26,694 nucleotides of DNA, from the IMG/VR virus record IMGVR_UViG_3300042326_000208, positions 1 through 26,694 of that record; one strand, written 5' to 3'. Below, piece after piece: positions 3,602 to 14,669 of the stretch (position 1 is the first letter of the stretch; each line of letters starts with the position of its first letter). Under the pieces are notes generated by a model that saw nothing but the letters and a program-made list of their open reading frames with translations, was not told where the DNA came from and made no database searches. Source of the stretch: a virus. The translations under genes and the position numbers were made by a program.

Positions 3602-4285
3602 ATGCACTACTACCAGCACCATATCGGTGACTTCATCAAGGCTACTTCTCGCCTAACAGATTCACAGGCAATGGCATATTTGCGCCTGATCTGGATGTAC
3701 TACGACTCCGAAAAACCCCTTCCTAACGATATAGACGTTCTTGCTTTGCAGGTCGGGTTACCAGCCGATCAAGTCCATTTGCTGCTACGAGCCTATTTCC
3801 GGCTTGAGGATGGTGTATGGAAACACTCACGTTGTGATGCAGAACTTGATGAATATCGTAGCTTTGTTGGCAAGAAATCACTTGCTGGTAAAGCATCTGC
3901 TGAACAACGGAAGAACAAACGCTTAACACCTGTTGAACAGGTGTTGAACGAGTGTTCAACGGACGTTCAACTAACCAATAACCATAAACCAATAACCAAT
4001 AACCATAAACCAATAAAAACAAGTAAAGCGGACGTAGAACGTCCTGACGATATTCCTGAAGATTTATGGATTGATTTCCAGAAACATCGAAAGATTAAGA
4101 AAGCTCAGATAACGCAAAGAGTTATCGATACCTTACGAAAAGAAGGTGATAAGGCTGGACTAAAGTTACCTCAGGTAATGGAAAAAATGATTGTGAACAA
4201 CTGGCAAGGGTTTCACGCAGAGTGGGTTAAACCAAAAGAAACTAAGCAGACAGACTGGTGGATGAACGACAGGAGGATCAAATGA
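3602..4285 (+). CDS. DUF1376 (YdaU-like) replication protein
   Basis: A 227-residue protein. The N-terminal domain (about 1-90) matches DUF1376: HHIGDFIKATSRLTDSQAMA followed by the winged-helix-like YLRLIWMYYDSEKPLP. A low-complexity linker (about 100-148) contains a doubled TNNHKPI heptad. The C-terminal domain (about 149-220; LWIDFQKHRKIKK, then NNWQGFHAEW) is the kind found in phage helicase-loading or initiator proteins. The organisation parallels lambda O: DNA-binding N terminus, repeat-bearing linker DNA, helicase-contacting C terminus. It overlaps the primase-like gene by 4 nt and lies upstream of the replicative helicase, consistent with initiation of phage DNA replication. Domain family is firm, initiator role inferred. 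Confidence 0.82.
   Translation: MHYYQHHIGDFIKATSRLTDSQAMAYLRLIWMYYDSEKPLPNDIDVLALQVGLPADQVHLLLRAYFRLEDGVWKHSRCDAELDEYRSFVGKKSLAGKASAEQRKNKRLTPVEQVLNECSTDVQLTNNHKPITNNHKPIKTSKADVERPDDIPEDLWIDFQKHRKIKKAQITQRVIDTLRKEGDKAGLKLPQVMEKMIVNNWQGFHAEWVKPKETKQTDWWMNDRRIK
3925..4014. other. Candidate replication origin: phased iterons, palindrome and tandem repeat
   Basis: Inside the linker-coding part of the replication gene lie three elements. (1) AACACCTGTT and AACAGGTGTT form a perfect 10-bp dyad with a 1-nt centre (3925-3945). (2) GTTGAAC occurs at 3932 and 3943, and its complement GTTCAAC at 3954 and 3965, exactly 11 bp apart each time. (3) A 21-bp perfect tandem duplication (3973-3993, 3994-4014) is almost pure A/T/C and could unwind. 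Iterons followed by an easily melted A-rich repeat inside the initiator gene is the arrangement of the lambda origin. Confidence 0.6.
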
Positions 4286-4710
4286 TTGGAGACTTACTAA
4301 ACAAGCTGGAAAAGGTTAAAGGTTCAAAAGGTCGGTGGATAGCTTGCTGTCCTGCTCACGTTGACAGATCGCCAAGCCTTGCCATAACGGAAACTGACGA
4401 TGGTCGAATCCTGCTCAAGTGCTTTGCCGGATGTTCAGCACAACAAGTCGTTGAAGCGGTAGGAATGGACTTGACAGACCTATTTCCTAACGACAACAAT
4501 CTAAGTTCCCTTAAGGAAAAACATTTTAATAAACCAGTACGCAGACCGTTTTACGCATCAGACCTGCTGAAAATAATCCAATTTGAGGCACTTTTAACGT
4601 CCGTAGCGGCGTTTGATTTGAGCGAGGGTAGGCAGGTATCGGAAGTAGACAGAAAACGCCTTAAAACGGCTGTATCGAGAATCAACGAAGCAGTTTCTTA
4701 TATTCAATAA
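4282..4710 (+). CDS. Stand-alone primase-type zinc-binding protein
   Basis: ATG at 4282 was chosen because AGGAGG lies 5 nt upstream and the ATG overlaps the previous stop (ATGA). The 142-residue protein starts with a CHC2-like primase zinc ribbon: C22/C23-P-A-H26, then RSPSLAIT, then LKCFAGC (C47, C51) and AVGMDLTDLFP. The rest (about 75-142) is helical. There is no TOPRIM or other catalytic primase domain, so the protein cannot make primers by itself. The zinc domain of primases recognises template DNA, and here it may guide a host primase or helicase. Position between initiator and helicase supports a replication role. Confidence 0.75.
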   Translation: MIGDLLNKLEKVKGSKGRWIACCPAHVDRSPSLAITETDDGRILLKCFAGCSAQQVVEAVGMDLTDLFPNDNNLSSLKEKHFNKPVRRPFYASDLLKIIQFEALLTSVAAFDLSEGRQVSEVDRKRLKTAVSRINEAVSYIQ

Positions 4711-4713
4711 TTT

Positions 4714-5115
4714 ATGGAAATCTCTCAAACTTTTACGTTTGAAGCTGCTCATACGTTAGCTCGGTTAGTCCCATTAGTTGAATACGAGCCGAGTATGAGA
4801 ATTCATGGACATTCTTACGTTGCTACGGTTGCGGTCAAGGGTGAGATGGGTGCTGATGGGATGCTGCAATTTTTTAGGCTTCCAAAAAATAAGCGGCAAA
4901 GGGTTGACTTGTTTTACTTGCGGAAAGAAATCCAAGAGGTCAGAGCAAAGTTAGACCATCGTTTCCTTAATGAAATTGAGGATTTGCCGCACCAGACGCT
5001 AGAGGCACTATGCGTATTCATCTTTAATCACATTAATCAGTATTTCCCTGTCGCTTGGGTCAAGGTTGAGCGACCATTAAGCGGAGATGCTTGCCGATAC
5101 GATGGTGTCAAATGA
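4714..5115 (+). CDS. queD: QueD-like 6-carboxytetrahydropterin synthase homologue (catalytic Cys replaced)
   Basis: A 133-residue protein of the PTPS/QueD fold. QueD converts dihydroneopterin triphosphate to 6-carboxytetrahydropterin, the second step to preQ0. The zinc ligands are present: H13 in FEAAH (9-13) and H31/H33 in IHGHSY. The Asp-His pair is in LDHRFLN (D81-H82), and the late Glu is in VKVER. At the position of E. coli QueD Cys27 this protein has Ser27 (EPSMRIHGH). About 11 extra residues (around 52-62, rich in Lys/Arg) sit where the family normally reads GM-x-DF. The gene precedes dpdA with a 4-nt ATGA overlap, tying it to DNA 7-deazaguanine modification. Fold firm; activity uncertain because of Ser27. 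Confidence 0.85.
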   Translation: MEISQTFTFEAAHTLARLVPLVEYEPSMRIHGHSYVATVAVKGEMGADGMLQFFRLPKNKRQRVDLFYLRKEIQEVRAKLDHRFLNEIEDLPHQTLEALCVFIFNHINQYFPVAWVKVERPLSGDACRYDGVK

Positions 5116-5852
5116 TCCACTATCACGGCCTTCCAATAACCCCGGCAACAGCAGCTCTAAGGGCGATAAGTGGTGGTCATGCGTTTGTTTCCTTTAGACA
5201 TTCAGACCAACTAACGATAGCGTTAGAGGCTTCTCAGTCTTTTGCTGTGGATAACGGGGCTTTCAGCGCGTGGAAATCCGGCAATCCTGTAGAAGATTGG
5301 ATTCCGTTTTATCAATGGGTGGATAGATTGCGACGTTATCCAGCGTTTGATTTTGCTGTAATCCCAGACGTTATTGACGGTGACGAAAAGGCAAATGATG
5401 ACTTGCTGGATGAGTTTCCTTTTGCGGTTTATGTTGGCGCACCGGTATGGCATTTGCATGAGAGCCTAGATAGATTGGATCGGCTAGTAACTAAGTATCC
5501 AAGGATTTGTTTAGGCTCGTCTGGTGATTTTGCAAACATAGGAACCCCTGCTTGGTGGAGTCGGATGGCTGAGGCAATGGATGTTATTTGCGACGATGAA
5601 GGATTGCCAAAGACTAAGATTCACGGTTTGCGGATGCTGAATCCTGATGTCTTTACGAGATTTCCATTTTCGTCCGCTGATAGCACAAACATAGGTCAAA
5701 ACATCGGGATTGATAGCGCATGGCGTGGTACTTATACACCACCAACAAAAGAGGCTAGAGCTGCTCTAATGAGGGAGAGGATTGAATCACACCAAAGCGC
5801 ACAGGTATGGGATAGAACTGTTGCGCCTATTCAGGTAAATTTATTTGATTAA
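5112..5852 (+). CDS. dpdA: DpdA-like DNA 7-deazaguanine transglycosylase
   Basis: ATG at 5112 overlaps the queD stop; the 246-residue product starts MIHYHGLPITP, as phage DpdA proteins do. Its motifs follow the order of tRNA-guanine transglycosylase: DNGAFSAW (47-54), IPDVIDG (84-90), HLHES (114-118), CLGSSGDF (133-140), HGLRML (171-176) and SADSTN (188-193). By analogy D190 would be the nucleophile attacking the glycosidic bond. The Cys-x-Cys-x2-Cys...His zinc site of TGT is absent. DpdA swaps guanine in DNA for a preQ0-type 7-deazaguanine, protecting phage DNA from restriction. FolE, QueE and QueC are not in the window and would come from the host or elsewhere in the genome. Confidence 0.88.
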   Translation: MIHYHGLPITPATAALRAISGGHAFVSFRHSDQLTIALEASQSFAVDNGAFSAWKSGNPVEDWIPFYQWVDRLRRYPAFDFAVIPDVIDGDEKANDDLLDEFPFAVYVGAPVWHLHESLDRLDRLVTKYPRICLGSSGDFANIGTPAWWSRMAEAMDVICDDEGLPKTKIHGLRMLNPDVFTRFPFSSADSTNIGQNIGIDSAWRGTYTPPTKEARAALMRERIESHQSAQVWDRTVAPIQVNLFD

Positions 5853-5864
5853 CTAGGGGAAACT

Positions 5865-6863
5865 ATGAGTCTTGAGGCAAGAGCGATAGAACTAGACGAG
5901 GCTAGGAAGGCTCGAATCCTAAAGTCAGAAAGTATTGACGTAGAGAAGTATCTACATTCAAACGACGTAACGATACGGGTTAAGAAGGCTTCTGAATGGC
6001 TAGATTCCATCAAAGAGGCTTACTTATCGGAAACGGTAGAAAAAAAGATCGTTATGCCTTGGGTCAGAACCCATGATTCTTTTGCCTATCGTGAGGGTGA
6101 GGTAACTGTCTACGCAGGTTCTAACGGTGGTGGTAAGTCGCTTATCACGGGTCAGATAGCGTTGAGTCTGGTCAAGCAGGGTCAGTCAGTCTGCATAGCG
6201 TCGTTTGAGATGAAGCCTGAACGGACGCTACAGAGGATGCTTAGACAGTTTTCCGGGGAATCGTTGGATGATCCGTTGACTCACGACAGGGCAGGATTTA
6301 TCACGAAGATGGTTGACCGGATGGATAAGTTTCTATCCGACAAGATGTACCTGTACGACCAGCAGGGAACTACGTCACCGGAGAAGGTGATTGCTATGAG
6401 TCGGTATTGCGCCATCGAGCTAAAGGTCAAGCACATCGTTATCGACAGCCTGATGAAGTGCGTCAAGAACGAGGATGACTTCAACGGTCAGAAGTCTTTT
6501 ATCGACGAGCTAACGGCATTGGCTAGGGATCACAATGTACACATCCATCTAGTCCACCATATCCGCAAGCAGCAGACGGACGAGACACAGCCGAACAAGA
6601 ACGATTTGAAAGGGTCTGGAAGTATCTCGGATCAGGTGGATAACGTCTTTTTGGTTTGGAGAAACAAGAAAAAAGAAAACCAGAAGAACCGGGGTGAGCA
6701 GATAGACGAGACTCAGCCGGATACTTTCCTAATGTGCGAGAAACAGAGGAATGGTGACGGTCAGGAGTGGTACGGACTCTGGTACGACAGTCTAAGTCAG
6801 CAGTTTGTGGAGAGGATAGGAGCGAGAATTGACTTTGACAACCGAGGAAGTTTTAAGGCATAG
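5865..6863 (+). CDS. DnaB-type replicative helicase (RecA-like ATPase)
   Basis: A 332-residue protein led by GGGGAAA upstream of the ATG. The N-terminal ~65 residues are helical and charged. The ATPase core follows: Walker A GSNGGGKS (85-92), a DnaB-like SFEMKPER segment (113-120), Walker B HIVIDSL (190-196), HLVHHIRK (228-235) and DLKGSGSISDQVDNVF (248-262), close to DnaB motif H4 (DLRESG). It lacks the full DnaB N-terminal domain, so it resembles the C-terminal helicase half of T7 gp4 or DnaB. It would unwind the phage fork after loading by the DUF1376 protein. The last 35 nt overlap the next gene. Confidence 0.88.
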   Translation: MSLEARAIELDEARKARILKSESIDVEKYLHSNDVTIRVKKASEWLDSIKEAYLSETVEKKIVMPWVRTHDSFAYREGEVTVYAGSNGGGKSLITGQIALSLVKQGQSVCIASFEMKPERTLQRMLRQFSGESLDDPLTHDRAGFITKMVDRMDKFLSDKMYLYDQQGTTSPEKVIAMSRYCAIELKVKHIVIDSLMKCVKNEDDFNGQKSFIDELTALARDHNVHIHLVHHIRKQQTDETQPNKNDLKGSGSISDQVDNVFLVWRNKKKENQKNRGEQIDETQPDTFLMCEKQRNGDGQEWYGLWYDSLSQQFVERIGARIDFDNRGSFKA

Positions 6864-10644: not shown

Positions 10645-10924
10645 GAAGGCCGGTAAGAACCCTAAAGGTGGCTTGAATGAAAAGGGCAGAAAGTCCTACG
10701 AAGCTGCAAATCCCGGCTCTGATCTTAAGCCTCCTGTTAAATCTGGTGATAACCCTCGTCGTGCTTCATTTTTAGCGAGGATGGGCAATATGCCGGGAGC
10801 AGAGCGTAAACCTAACGGTGAGCCTACTCGACTACTTCTAAGCCTACAGGCATGGGGAGCTAGTTCTAAGGCCGATGCCAAGGCTAAAGCAGCCGCAATA
10901 TCCGCAAGAAACAAGAAAAAATGA
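10625..10924 (+). CDS. DUF6321-like small basic protein
   Basis: A 99-residue protein with the pattern WTKKAGKNPKGGLNEKGRKS (5-24), NPGSDLKPPV, RRASFLARMGNMPGAERKPN and GEPTRLLLSLQAWG. These match the DUF6321 family I know from phage and bacterial genomes, whose role is undescribed. A GGGGTAAAA stretch precedes the ATG. The basic, Gly/Pro-rich composition suggests an extended nucleic-acid-binding protein. It is the last of four consecutive Lys-rich small genes and overlaps the acetyltransferase by 4 nt. Confidence 0.75.
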   Translation: MAAAWTKKAGKNPKGGLNEKGRKSYEAANPGSDLKPPVKSGDNPRRASFLARMGNMPGAERKPNGEPTRLLLSLQAWGASSKADAKAKAAAISARNKKK

Positions 10925-11430
10925 GATATACCTACGGGCTGGAGAACATCCGGGTTCGGCATTGGGGTGAGGAAGCAGACATTCGGATCGGGTCTTTTTG
11001 CTCGATTGGCGATAACGTCGAGATATTTCTAGGAGGGAATCATCGGACAGACTGGGTAACGACCTACCCTTTTGGGCATATTCATGAGGATGTATTCCCT
11101 TGGCATGGTGAAGGGCATCCGGGTACTAAAGGCGATGTTGTCATTGGTAACGATGTTTGGATAGGGTCGGGATGTACGATTATGTCTGGCGTTACGATAG
11201 GTGACGGTGCTGTCCTAGCGGCTAAGTCTGTGGTTACAAAGGATGTCCCTGCTTATGCGGTAGTCGGTGGGAATCCAGCCAAGGTCTTAAAGTACCGTTT
11301 CAACGGGGATCAGATAGACAAGCTGCTAGAGAATCCTTGGTGGGAACTACCAGAAGCCCGTATAAACGATTTAATCCCGTTGCTGTGTTCAGACAAGGTA
11401 GAGGACTTAATTGCAGCCCTTAACGCTTAA
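10921..11430 (+). CDS. CatB-like hexapeptide-repeat acetyltransferase
   Basis: A 169-residue left-handed beta-helix acyltransferase. Hexapeptide repeats are visible around IGSFCSIGDNVEIF and VVIGNDVWIGSGCTIMSGVT (about 73-92), IGDGAVLAAKSVV, and the typical end VPAYAVVGGNPAKVLKYRF (about 109-127). GGNHRTDWVTTYPF (38-51) holds H41, the position of the catalytic His of xenobiotic acyltransferases. It should transfer acetyl from acetyl-CoA to a sugar or similar acceptor in the cytoplasm. Together with the next two genes it forms a small transferase cassette overlapping head to tail, perhaps for surface or DNA decoration. Acceptor unknown. Confidence 0.85.
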   Translation: MRYTYGLENIRVRHWGEEADIRIGSFCSIGDNVEIFLGGNHRTDWVTTYPFGHIHEDVFPWHGEGHPGTKGDVVIGNDVWIGSGCTIMSGVTIGDGAVLAAKSVVTKDVPAYAVVGGNPAKVLKYRFNGDQIDKLLENPWWELPEARINDLIPLLCSDKVEDLIAALNA

Positions 11431-11941
11431 TTTAGGCTCTGGTAAGGATTGGCGGGATGACTGCTTAAACGCAGACATTCAGGCTAGGGTAAAGCCGGAC
11501 TGGGTGGCAGACATTTCTCGGGTGAACTTTGGCGAGGTTATAGCTACTCGGTTTGGGGAAATTCAGATCAAGCCTTATATGTTTGATAAGATCATTGCTA
11601 ACGATGTCTTGGAGCATATTCCAGACTTGGTAGGCGCGATGACGAACTGCAAGAATCTGCTAAAGCCGGGAGGTGAGTTCCATATTCACGTTCCTTACGA
11701 GCTAAGTCTAGGAGCATGGCAAGACCCGACTCACGTTAGGGCGTTCAACGAGAATAGCTGGCTGTACTACACAGATTGGCATTGGTACTTAGGGTGGGAA
11801 GATCGGTTTTACATGAAGCAGCTAGCGTTTAACCTGTCTGAGTACGGAAATGAGTTAGCAGAAAAGAAAGTAACAGACGCAGAAATACTGAGAACTCCAA
11901 GGGCTGTAGATTCGATGAGTGTTATTTTATGCAAGCAATAG
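11411..11941 (+). CDS. Class I SAM-dependent methyltransferase
   Basis: A 176-residue protein with motif I LNLGSGKDW (6-14), an acidic post-I strand (LNADI), motif IV-like IIANDVLEHIPDL (61-73), and KNLLKPGGEFHIHVPYE (81-97). The stretch WQDPTHVRAFNENSW (103-117) is typical of small methyltransferases found in sugar biosynthesis and phage gene clusters. It uses TTG at 11411, overlapping the acetyltransferase by 20 nt; no better start lies before motif I. It lacks the target-recognition domain of a DNA methyltransferase, so a small molecule or sugar acceptor is more likely. Confidence 0.82.
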   Translation: MQPLTLNLGSGKDWRDDCLNADIQARVKPDWVADISRVNFGEVIATRFGEIQIKPYMFDKIIANDVLEHIPDLVGAMTNCKNLLKPGGEFHIHVPYELSLGAWQDPTHVRAFNENSWLYYTDWHWYLGWEDRFYMKQLAFNLSEYGNELAEKKVTDAEILRTPRAVDSMSVILCKQ

Positions 11942-12636
11942 TTATATGTACGGTAAACAACCCCGGCATTACTGTGCTGCTGGAGTCTATTCGTTGCTAT
12001 GGTGACAAGTTACCCGTGTACTTATGTAGTAATAATCTTGGACTCTGGGCTAGAGCAAGAGAGATCACGGAAAACCTTATCTACCGACCCAATCCTGCTA
12101 CCAATTTCGGAGATGCTTATAACGCAGCCTGTGACTATGCCTTTGAACATGGCAAGTTTGACTCATTGATTTTAGCTAACGATGATGTGGTTCTTAATCC
12201 AGATACGCTATCGTTAATGCGGGAAGATGCTGGGATTCTGGAATCTCGTGGCGTGAAATACGGATTCTTAGGTGCTAGGTCGGACTATGTATTGCCGGAT
12301 CAGAACATCAGGTTCCCGGTGGATGGTGACAGACGGGCAGGATTGAAGTGGGAAAGCGAGCATCAGATCAAGTTGACTCCGGTGATTGCGCCTATTTTCG
12401 CGTCAATAAGCCGGGAAGCATGGGAAGTAGCTAAGTTTCCGTCAACTAATTGGTATTCAGATAATATAATATGCCATGACTTGAACGTGGCGGGTTATCA
12501 GCATTTCGTCAGCAGGGCTTATGTGCATCATGCAGGAAGCCAGACGGTAGGTGTTGATTTCAAGAAATGTCACGAAGAACCGAAGGCGTGGATATTAGAG
12601 AACCGCCCAGATATGTATGAAGCGATATACGCATGA
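11929..12636 (+). CDS. Family 2-like glycosyltransferase
   Basis: A 235-residue GT-A-type protein: MQAIVICTVNNPG (first beta strand), a nucleotide-sugar region with YNAACDYAFEHG, and the metal-binding signature LILANDDVVLNP (80-91, D85-D86 in place of DxD). The later part (SISREAWEVAKFP, CHDLNVAGYQHFV) fits the acceptor half. It has no membrane segment, so it would work in the cytoplasm. It follows the methyltransferase with a 13-nt overlap. The sugar could be placed on LPS precursors, a virion protein or modified DNA; the sequence does not tell which. Confidence 0.75.
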   Translation: MQAIVICTVNNPGITVLLESIRCYGDKLPVYLCSNNLGLWARAREITENLIYRPNPATNFGDAYNAACDYAFEHGKFDSLILANDDVVLNPDTLSLMREDAGILESRGVKYGFLGARSDYVLPDQNIRFPVDGDRRAGLKWESEHQIKLTPVIAPIFASISREAWEVAKFPSTNWYSDNIICHDLNVAGYQHFVSRAYVHHAGSQTVGVDFKKCHEEPKAWILENRPDMYEAIYA

Positions 12637-12656: not shown

Positions 12657-13826
12657 GTGCAGATAAAGACAGTATCAGTAGAGAAACTCATCCCTTACGT
12701 CAGGAACAGTAGGACACATTCTGACGGTCAAGTAGCACAAATCGCGGCAAGTATCAAAGAATTCGGATGGACTAACCCTATCCTTGTGGACGGGGAAAGC
12801 GGCGTTATAGCTGGTCATGGTCGGCTATTGGCTGCAAGAAAGCTAGGCCAGAAGGAAGTTCCGGTCATCGAGCTAAAGCATATGACGGAGAGCCAGAAAC
12901 GGGCTTACGTTATTGCCGACAATCAATTAGCCATGAACGCAGGTTGGGATACGACCTTGTTATCGTTGGAACTAGCCGACTTAAAGGAACAAGGGTTCGA
13001 GATGGACGTACTCGGATTCGATCCTAAAGAGCTAGATAAGCTGCTGGAGCCTGAGCAGGTAGATGGATTAACGGACGAGGATGCCGTACCTGAGACTCCG
13101 GTAGAGCCTAAGACGAAGCTAGGGGATATTTATCAACTTGGCAATCATCGGTTAATGTGTGGGGATAGTACGAGCATTGATGCGGTAGAGAAGCTGATGG
13201 ATGGCGGCAAGGCTGACGTGTTGTTTACCGACCCTCCATATGGGATTGATTTTGCTCCGCAACGTGGTACGCATGGAAAGATTCTTAACGATGCTTTAAC
13301 TGGAACTGAATTTGATGACTTTCTTGATGATGTATTTGGTGCGGCATTGCTGTCAATGAAGCCAGATACATATGCGTTTGTTTGGACTGGGTGGCCTAAA
13401 ATTGGAGCATTTGAGCGTTCATTAGGGAAATATTTTAAGATTCAGGCAATGCACGTTTGGGTAAAAAATAATTTTGGCATTGGTTACTATTCTCGACCAA
13501 AACATGAGCCTTTCTACCTTTGCCTCAATGGGAAGCCTGTTTATCCAAATAAAGCACCGGCTGACGTATGGGATTTTGCTAAAGTCCAGAAAACAATTCA
13601 TTCATGCGAAAAACCAGTTGGCTTAATTCAAGAGATTTTAGATGTTTACCATAAGAACAGCATAGTTTTAGATTTGTTTGGCGGCAGCGGGAGTACGCTA
13701 ATTGCTTGTGAGAAAACAAATCGTCATGCAATGCTAATGGAACTAGACCCTAAATACTGTGATGTAATAGTAAAGAGATGGGAAGATTTCACCGGCAAGA
13801 AAGCCGTACTGTTAGCAGACAGTTAA
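12657..13826 (+). CDS. ParB/Srx domain fused to beta-class DNA methyltransferase
   Basis: A 389-residue, two-domain protein. Residues 1-125 are a ParB N-terminal-like domain: VEKLIPYVRNSRTHSD, GVIAGHGRLLAA (50-61), IADNQLA. Residues 150-385 are a DNA methyltransferase: catalytic TDPPYGIDF (191-199) comes first, SAM-binding LDLFGGSGSTLIAC (338-351) last, followed by ELDPKYCD. That is the beta order, with DPPY favouring adenine-N6 (or cytosine-N4). It has a GTG start. The second half of the gene uses more A/T-rich codons than the first, suggesting recombination at about 13245. It is probably an orphan methylase guarding phage DNA, with the ParB fold binding DNA or CTP. Confidence 0.88.
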   Translation: MQIKTVSVEKLIPYVRNSRTHSDGQVAQIAASIKEFGWTNPILVDGESGVIAGHGRLLAARKLGQKEVPVIELKHMTESQKRAYVIADNQLAMNAGWDTTLLSLELADLKEQGFEMDVLGFDPKELDKLLEPEQVDGLTDEDAVPETPVEPKTKLGDIYQLGNHRLMCGDSTSIDAVEKLMDGGKADVLFTDPPYGIDFAPQRGTHGKILNDALTGTEFDDFLDDVFGAALLSMKPDTYAFVWTGWPKIGAFERSLGKYFKIQAMHVWVKNNFGIGYYSRPKHEPFYLCLNGKPVYPNKAPADVWDFAKVQKTIHSCEKPVGLIQEILDVYHKNSIVLDLFGGSGSTLIACEKTNRHAMLMELDPKYCDVIVKRWEDFTGKKAVLLADS

Positions 13827-14204: not shown

Positions 14205-14268
14205 CTGCCCGATGTGCAGCGCGTTCCTAGTGAACAACAAGTGCTTGAACTGCGGATACGTTAAGTGA
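14185..14268 (+). CDS. 27-residue zinc-ribbon microprotein
   Basis: This ATG-initiated frame overlaps the terS end by 20 nt and ends in GTGA, so its stop overlaps the GTG of the HNH gene. The peptide has C8-x2-C11 (CPMC) and C20-x2-C23 (CLNC) followed by G-Y, a minimal rubredoxin-like zinc ribbon. AAAGG lies upstream. Four correctly spaced cysteines in 27 residues are unlikely by chance. Its role may be tied to packaging or to its neighbour nuclease, but this is unknown. Confidence 0.6.
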   Translation: MTYKQTNCPMCSAFLVNNKCLNCGYVK

Positions 14269-14669
14269 CTGAGATATGGCTTCCGTTGAACCATAACCCT
14301 GATTACGAGGTAAGTAATACGGGCAAAGTCCGATCAATCGATAGGATAAAGCCGCTTTTGTCTCGCTGGGGGATGATGACAACTAGGAAACACAAGGGGA
14401 GAGAATTAAGGCCTAGTGTAGCCGGAAGTGGATATTTGACTGTGAATTTCCAAATGCGCGGGAAAAAATACTATATCCATAGGCTTGTTGCAGAGCATTT
14501 TATTGACGGGGATAGTTCCCTTGAGGTGAATCATAAGGACGGGGATAAAAAAAATAATTACGTTAGTAATTTGGAATGGGTAACGAGGAAGGAAAATAGC
14601 ATCCACCTTACTCACGTTTTGGGCTGTAAAAAGGGTCAATTTATGTTGGGTGGTGGGCGACACACATGA
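14265..14669 (+). CDS. NUMOD4/HNH homing endonuclease
   Basis: A 134-residue protein: EIWLPLNHNPDYEVSNTGKV (3-22) is a NUMOD4-type DNA-binding motif. GYLTVNF and then KKYYIHRLVAEHFI (H72), EVNHKDGDKKNNYVSNLEWV (N89-H90, N98, N102) form an HNH_3 nuclease. Such genes are mobile: the nuclease cuts genomes lacking the insertion and is copied by repair. It lies exactly between the small and large terminase genes, a site often invaded by homing genes. The GTG start overlaps the zinc protein's stop, and its end overlaps terL by 4 nt, so the insertion is well fitted into the operon. It probably has no role in packaging. Confidence 0.88.
   Translation: MTEIWLPLNHNPDYEVSNTGKVRSIDRIKPLLSRWGMMTTRKHKGRELRPSVAGSGYLTVNFQMRGKKYYIHRLVAEHFIDGDSSLEVNHKDGDKKNNYVSNLEWVTRKENSIHLTHVLGCKKGQFMLGGGRHT

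Follow-up and report, generated by a model that had tools for sequence, protein, structure and literature searches.

The window analysed here, a 26,694-base stretch of a virus record, carries two overlapping genes within its run of replication genes: one for a compact DpdA and one for a QueD-like T-fold protein in which serine stands in place of the signature cysteine (Ser-QueD) (Table 1). We consider it probable that they form a two-gene module in which DpdA inserts a host-made preQ0 derivative and Ser-QueD boosts the supply. The pair as such is a known kind of system; a QueD of the Ser type that is strictly paired with dpdA, and a QueF-Like neighbour of dpdA, mark it as a variant. An initial annotation had connected the locus with 7-deazaguanine metabolism, a link that our analysis supports; two features go beyond it, namely that the QueD-like protein has no catalytic cysteine and that the DpdA is of the compact, dpdA-only kind.

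Table 1 Features of the queD–dpdA locus and the adjoining replication genes in the window
Feature	Coordinates	Strand	Length and evidence
Primosomal/replication-initiation O-like protein	3602..4285	+	phrog_6451 E 2.8e-33; opens the replication gene run holding the pair
Short DnaG zinc-ribbon (primase-like) protein	4258..4710	+	phrog_6088 E 5e-16; PF01807 E 5.8e-5, under cut-off; directly upstream of the pair
QueD-like T-fold protein (Ser-QueD)	4714..5115	+	133 aa; PF01242 E 2e-18; TIGR03367 57.9 bits, cut-off 89.25
ATGA overlap, queD stop/dpdA start (4 bp)	5112..5115	+	sequence; overlap retained in relatives
Compact DpdA, TGT-superfamily transglycosylase	5112..5852	+	246 aa from ATG 5112; phrog_887 E 1.2e-69
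DnaB-like helicase	5865..6863	+	PF03796 E 2.8e-20; directly downstream of the pair

The layout of the locus agrees with the initial annotation, both in the ATGA overlap of the QueD-fold gene with dpdA, a putative translational coupling, and in the position of the pair between primase-like and helicase genes. In a Pfam search the QueD-like reading frame scored 66.9 bits against PF01242 (PTPS; cut-off 22.4), and phrog_887, to which DpdA is assigned, bears the database label 'queuine tRNA-ribosyltransferase'. A PADLOC search returned no match. Elsewhere in the window, positions 12657-13826 contain another gene of this phage for DNA modification, whose product joins a ParB-like domain to an N6/N4 DNA methyltransferase (phrog_498, E 4.7e-131); tblastn did not find it in the relatives G004-G006. 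Ahead of the packaging genes, genes for a hexapeptide-repeat transferase, a methyltransferase and an unassigned 235-aa protein stand in a row (10921-12636), and a NUMOD4-HNH homing-endonuclease-like gene (14265-14669) lies directly ahead of the large terminase gene.

The assignment of the downstream gene to DpdA holds. All four motifs named earlier (DNGAFSAW, IPDVIDG, HLHES and SADSTN) are present, hhalign paired an alignment of 66 family proteins with the 9g and KurtStettler phage DpdAs at E 8e-10 (96.5%), and blastp comparison with characterised DpdA gave E values of 6e-11 and 2e-8. The hhalign pairing sets D47 against the Asp of the 9g DSGAF motif, H171 against 9g His196 and D190 against the Asp of CDSS. 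Among 155-156 viral DpdA relatives, D47 (in DNGAF) and D190 (in SADSTN) are invariant, as are H114, P85, D86, I88 and G90, while H171 is kept in 154 of 155; by this alignment, D47 and D190 are the catalytic Asp residues of the window DpdA, both intact. His196 was named by Hutinet et al. as a residue kept in DpdA and absent from DpdA2 (PMC6884629).

The nearest experimentally studied member that we found is the DpdA of Pantoea phage MED16, 40.5% identical to that of the window, and the compact DpdAs of MED16 and Salmonella phage SEN1 align over most of its length at 39-41% identity. The same clade takes in, besides SEN1, Epa33 and lambdoid Salmonella and Shigella phages. By sequence comparison, the window DpdA is thus a member of the compact 'dpdA-only' clade of proteobacterial phages and not of the 9g/CAjan kind, than which it is shorter and with which it shares ~25% core identity. 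Its AF2 model (pLDDT 86.6, pTM 0.85) alternates strands and helices in a TIM-barrel-like manner, and Foldseek returned several TIM-barrel families near E 0.001-0.02, including the archaeosine (archaeal) TGT 1j2b (query TM-score 0.55, E 0.02). The structural comparison with the TGT fold proposed in the initial annotation was decisive only in part: the model has the build of a TIM barrel, yet none of the PDB matches got past E 0.001. It is the sequence that identifies TGT, which the fold taken by itself does not. The Pfam TGT family had no match in the window DpdA, and a PDB sequence search with it gave no meaningful match.

Insertion of 7-deazaguanine into DNA by the window DpdA is predicted, with MED16 as the precedent. 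Virion DNA of MED16, a phage without preQ0 genes, contains 354 dADG per million nt (~0.13% of Gs), a modification that had no visible influence on the restriction enzymes tried (PMC8306585). Hutinet et al. (2019) left open the case of singleton DpdAs in phages without the preQ0 pathway; in their measurements Salmonella phage 7-11 had 50 dADG per million nt and mycobacteriophage Orion had no modification (PMC6884629). On these data, DNA modification by the clade is supported, but neither substantial replacement nor an anti-restriction effect is. Insertion of 7-deazaguanines by DpdA has been established chiefly for the 9g/CAjan type, with traces or nothing measured in dpdA-only phages; likewise, of the proposed guanine replacement and restriction evasion, some replacement is likely but protection is not established for this clade.

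Comparison with known systems sets the window apart in several respects. MED16 and SEN1 have the same compact DpdA, and in MED16, which lacks folE, queE and queC, host preQ0 is presumed; no QueD adjoins their dpdA, in contrast to the window with its translational coupling of dpdA to a QueD of the Ser type. Enterobacteria phage 9g and Escherichia phage CAjan also have a DpdA of the TGT superfamily, which in 9g shares its catalytic residues and His196 with the window protein, and a QueD-family gene in the cluster, but they encode the whole preQ0 pathway (FolE, QueD, QueE and QueC or Gat-QueC), whereas the window has only a QueD relative without the cysteine. The QueD of 9g restores queuosine in E. 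coli (PMC6884629). Bacterial dpd restriction-modification islands combine DpdA with preQ0 genes, and the dpd-like cluster of MT835580 shares the Ser-QueD; unlike these islands, the window phage group has no other preQ0 genes and its DpdA is of the compact phage type.

In QueD enzymes the Cys is catalytic and the Glu of the E-T motif anchors the pterin. In an alignment with solved QueD structures, Ser27 of the window protein falls on Cys27 of E. coli, and Arg120 occupies the position of the Glu in the C-terminal E-T motif; one of the aligned structures, 4ntk, has Ala at position 27. Among 160 relatives (80 viral and 80 chromosomal), which were picked by similarity to the window type and so describe the Ser-QueD subfamily rather than all QueDs, Ser27 is found in 160 and Arg120 in 159, the remaining one not being covered at that position, and the zinc ligands His13, His31 and His33 and the Asp81-His82 dyad are present in every one. 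The window protein falls under the cut-off of TIGR03367, the NCBIfam QueD equivalog (Table 1), as do eight other Ser-QueDs (55-85 bits), and a Pseudomonas Cys-QueD passes at 109.7 bits.

Published signatures of the COG0720 subfamilies are CxxxHGH for PTPS-I (QueD), CxxxxxHGH for PTPS-II and ExxHGH for PTPS-III (PMC5041015). While the window protein has PF01242, the three zinc-binding His residues of the family and the Asp-His dyad in common with these subfamilies, its SxxxHGH motif fits none of the three; the PTPS-II and PTPS-III signatures are absent, since the window reads YEPSMRIHGH, and the Glu at -6 is not kept in relatives. The label 'QueD' needs correction, given a missing catalytic-Cys signature and a failed equivalog cut-off, and the earlier remark that QueD belongs to the preQ0 pathway does not stand as worded. 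CPH4 synthesis by Ser-QueD is putative and unproven because the protein has neither the Cys signature nor the Glu anchor and scores under the equivalog cut-off, a point that counts against the preferred explanation.

The association of Ser-QueD with DpdA extends well beyond the window. A same-strand dpdA was present at 79/80 viral Ser-QueD loci, no more than 120 bp away at 78, with the order dpdA-queD at 53 and queD-dpdA at 26. Because the ATGA overlap is retained in relatives and the genes adjoin at nearly all viral loci, the coupling is not due to chance. In a tree, phage Ser-QueDs nest among betaproteobacterial ones, the Ser type stands apart from the four Cys QueDs included (support 96/92), and at least three changes of label per phage group are required by the branches that have support, albeit with few columns and many open forks; this suggests that Ser-QueD was captured or shuffled repeatedly beside dpdA. 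No QueD was found in 37 of 50 compact-dpdA viral records, and QueD is therefore not required for DpdA.

Bacterial chromosomes provide a second context, in which relatives of Ser-QueD adjoin queE and/or queC. A single PTPS match was present in 10 of the 22 genomes examined, all ten of the Ser type; nine of these have a QueE gene with the Cx14CxxC motif directly adjoining Ser-QueD together with a full-length QueC, and the tenth (G072) lacks both QueE and QueC. QueF was present in all 13 bacterial genomes tested. Cys-type QueDs co-occur with the Ser type in some of the same genomes, and where there are two PTPS, as in Cupriavidus, the Cys type lies beside queE and the Ser type beside queC; in G060 and G061 (Cupriavidus and Massilia), the Cys-type QueD beside queE carries an insertion and the queC beside the Ser type is a second copy. 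MT835580 has its Ser-QueD gene flanked by queE and queC, with a TGT-family gene upstream, an arrangement like that of dpd islands. Its dpd-like island (MT835580.1 33198-41548), in a human-gut record annotated as phage, holds a TGT-family DpdA-like protein, QueE, Ser-QueD, QueC and a DGQQR-motif protein. Because Ser-QueD is the sole PTPS beside queE in QueC-bearing genomes, and because of the MT835580 arrangement, the genomic context speaks for the Ser type as the provider of the QueD step or of a closely similar one. The same chromosomal occurrence beside queE weakened the idea of a neofunctionalised, phage-only QueD. A Salmonella match (H62) considered as a dpd island was rejected, its neighbourhood being a housekeeping queD locus.

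The incompleteness of the pathway noted earlier extends from the window to all closely related records, from which FolE, QueE and QueC are missing. Across 50 dpdA-bearing viral records there was no match to FolE or to radical SAM/QueE and none to QueC over the cut-off, four records giving only weak QueC matches under it that cover ~70 positions, and none of the 50 holds the complete 9g/CAjan-type set (FolE, QueD, QueE and QueC). QueC was likewise found in none of another 20 viral records, in each of which the stretch retrieved contains both Ser-QueD and dpdA. The families were searched in G007, which is identical to the window save for the window's last 5.6 kb, where the listed reading frames are virion-like. 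In the relative G005 (36,483 bases), whose DpdA is 95% identical to the window's, the two ends repeat each other at 95% identity (the first 268 aligned bases and the last 268), and the replication and head genes of the window, when mapped onto it, run over the end join, so that it is probably a complete, circularly permuted genome or circular map; folE, queE and queC are absent from it as well. These genes are thus probably absent from this phage group, judging from the related sequences, and the middle of the pathway would have to come from the host. Of the two sources suggested in the initial annotation, host preQ0 is preferred, and we rejected genes outside the window, as the related records, including this 36.5-kb relative with overlapping ends, have none.

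Other phages of the compact DpdA clade carry different neighbours. An 82-residue protein (phrog_37496) with no Pfam family over the cut-off is encoded upstream of dpdA, and at 80/80 loci found by its own alignment (L013, L020, L032, L036, L060, L063, L066, L067, L073-L075 and L327-L403; for example, L032:7756-8001) dpdA lies on the same strand, always within ~525 bp. Pseudomonas phage Epa33, which is in culture, has both this protein and dpdA. The AF2 model of the 82-residue protein (pLDDT 96.5) has the T-fold order; its closest PDB matches, with E 7e-4 at best and TM-scores ≤0.80, are 5jyx and 5k0p, two structures of archaeosine synthase QueF-Like, and Cys12 and His49-Glu50, which never vary, correspond in position to the CP and FHE motifs of QueF. 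When compared by hhalign with QueF alone, the protein gave a weak match of low probability (E 0.007-0.02), and we regard the match of the modelled structure as the better evidence; on this model, phrog_37496 is predicted to be a minimal QueF-Like partner of DpdA. The sequence of MED16 gp37, encoded upstream of dpdA, led us to reject the proposal that it is this mini T-fold protein. At L347 and L351 (4243-4713), a gene of the YhhQ family (Vut_1, PF02592) lies between the phrog_37496 gene and dpdA. YhhQ proteins are known preQ0 importers, and by its family this gene possibly serves preQ0 import by the phage. Both neighbours lend further weight to placing the compact DpdA clade in deazaguanine metabolism.

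The family and residues of DpdA, the coupling of the genes and the absence of the others are directly observed; we infer the substrate, the product, DNA as the target and CPH4 as what Ser-QueD makes. Host FolE would provide dihydroneopterin triphosphate, which the phage Ser-QueD, with or instead of host QueD, would convert to CPH4; host QueE and QueC would carry this on to preQ0 (or ADG), and DpdA would swap guanines of the replicating phage DNA for the preQ0 or ADG base. The phage would in this way retain the entry step of the committed branch and the insertion step, with the middle left to a queuosine-making host, and the expected product would be dPreQ0 or dADG, possibly at a low level as in MED16. 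The pair recurs in dozens of phages and is probably a minimal kit for modifying phage DNA with host precursors. Against this explanation, modification was slight or absent in those dpdA-only phages that have been tested (PMC6884629, PMC8306585), and it offers no reason why the QueD step alone should be limiting. The many compact-dpdA records without QueD and the Foldseek matches of the DpdA model to TIM barrels in general also count against it.

The main rival holds that Ser-QueD is not a CPH4 synthase but a T-fold protein repurposed as a partner of DpdA, which would bind the base and pass it to DpdA or further modify it once inserted; its ligand would be the 7-deazaguanine base or some other pterin or purine. 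It would account for the change of Cys to Ser and of the anchor Glu to Arg in all readable relatives, for the near-obligate viral pairing with DpdA and for the scores of all tested Ser-QueDs under the QueD cut-off, and the consistent pairing of phrog_37496, a second T-fold protein with QueF-Like resemblance, with DpdA fits it too. However, the zinc ligands and the Asp-His dyad are invariant, and chromosomal Ser-QueD is the sole PTPS in genomes with queE and queC, where queuosine needs a CPH4 synthase; we judge this rival unlikely, although it ranks ahead of the others. A joint reading, which we hold tentatively, is that compact DpdAs use small T-fold partners (the Cys-less QueD here and elsewhere phrog_37496, which would turn DNA-bound preQ0 into archaeosine or the amide) in minimal, host-dependent systems, with Ser-QueD making CPH4 or another product without the signature Cys. 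Such small T-fold partners of compact DpdAs are described in none of the papers that we found.

Two further readings carry very little weight. The pair could serve queuosine in host tRNA during infection rather than phage DNA, with either the TGT-like protein or the QueD enhancing tRNA modification, as the label of phrog_887 would have it and as Hutinet et al. propose, in the form of boosted tRNA queuosine, for phages with preQ0 genes and without DpdA (PMC6884629). This is most improbable, since the closest kin are phage DpdAs and the DpdA His196 is retained, dADG is present in MED16 DNA (PMC8306585), and dpdA is placed among replication genes and encodes a protein with no Pfam TGT match. Just as improbable is a degenerate or nearly silent pair, with trace insertion by DpdA and Ser-QueD as an inactive relic: the trace dADG in 7-11 and MED16 and its absence in Orion (PMC6884629, PMC8306585) would agree with such decay, as would the missing catalytic Cys, but active-site residues and gene adjacency are kept over wide divergence and Ser-QueD was apparently captured repeatedly beside dpdA.

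Our preferred reading, a host-fed DpdA with a supply-boosting Ser-QueD, narrows the question raised by Hutinet et al. (2019) of whether dpdA phages without the preQ0 pathway modify their DNA and how they are supplied. A conserved Ser-QueD, a YhhQ-type transporter and a QueF-Like mini-protein occur beside dpdA in different phages, each of them indicating 7-deazaguanine metabolism, and together they single out particular phages and genes for experiments. Lastly, a branch of the QueD family sits in queuosine operons without the cysteine on which annotation relies, so that the catalytic requirement as now accepted, or else the way these genomes are annotated, should be re-examined.
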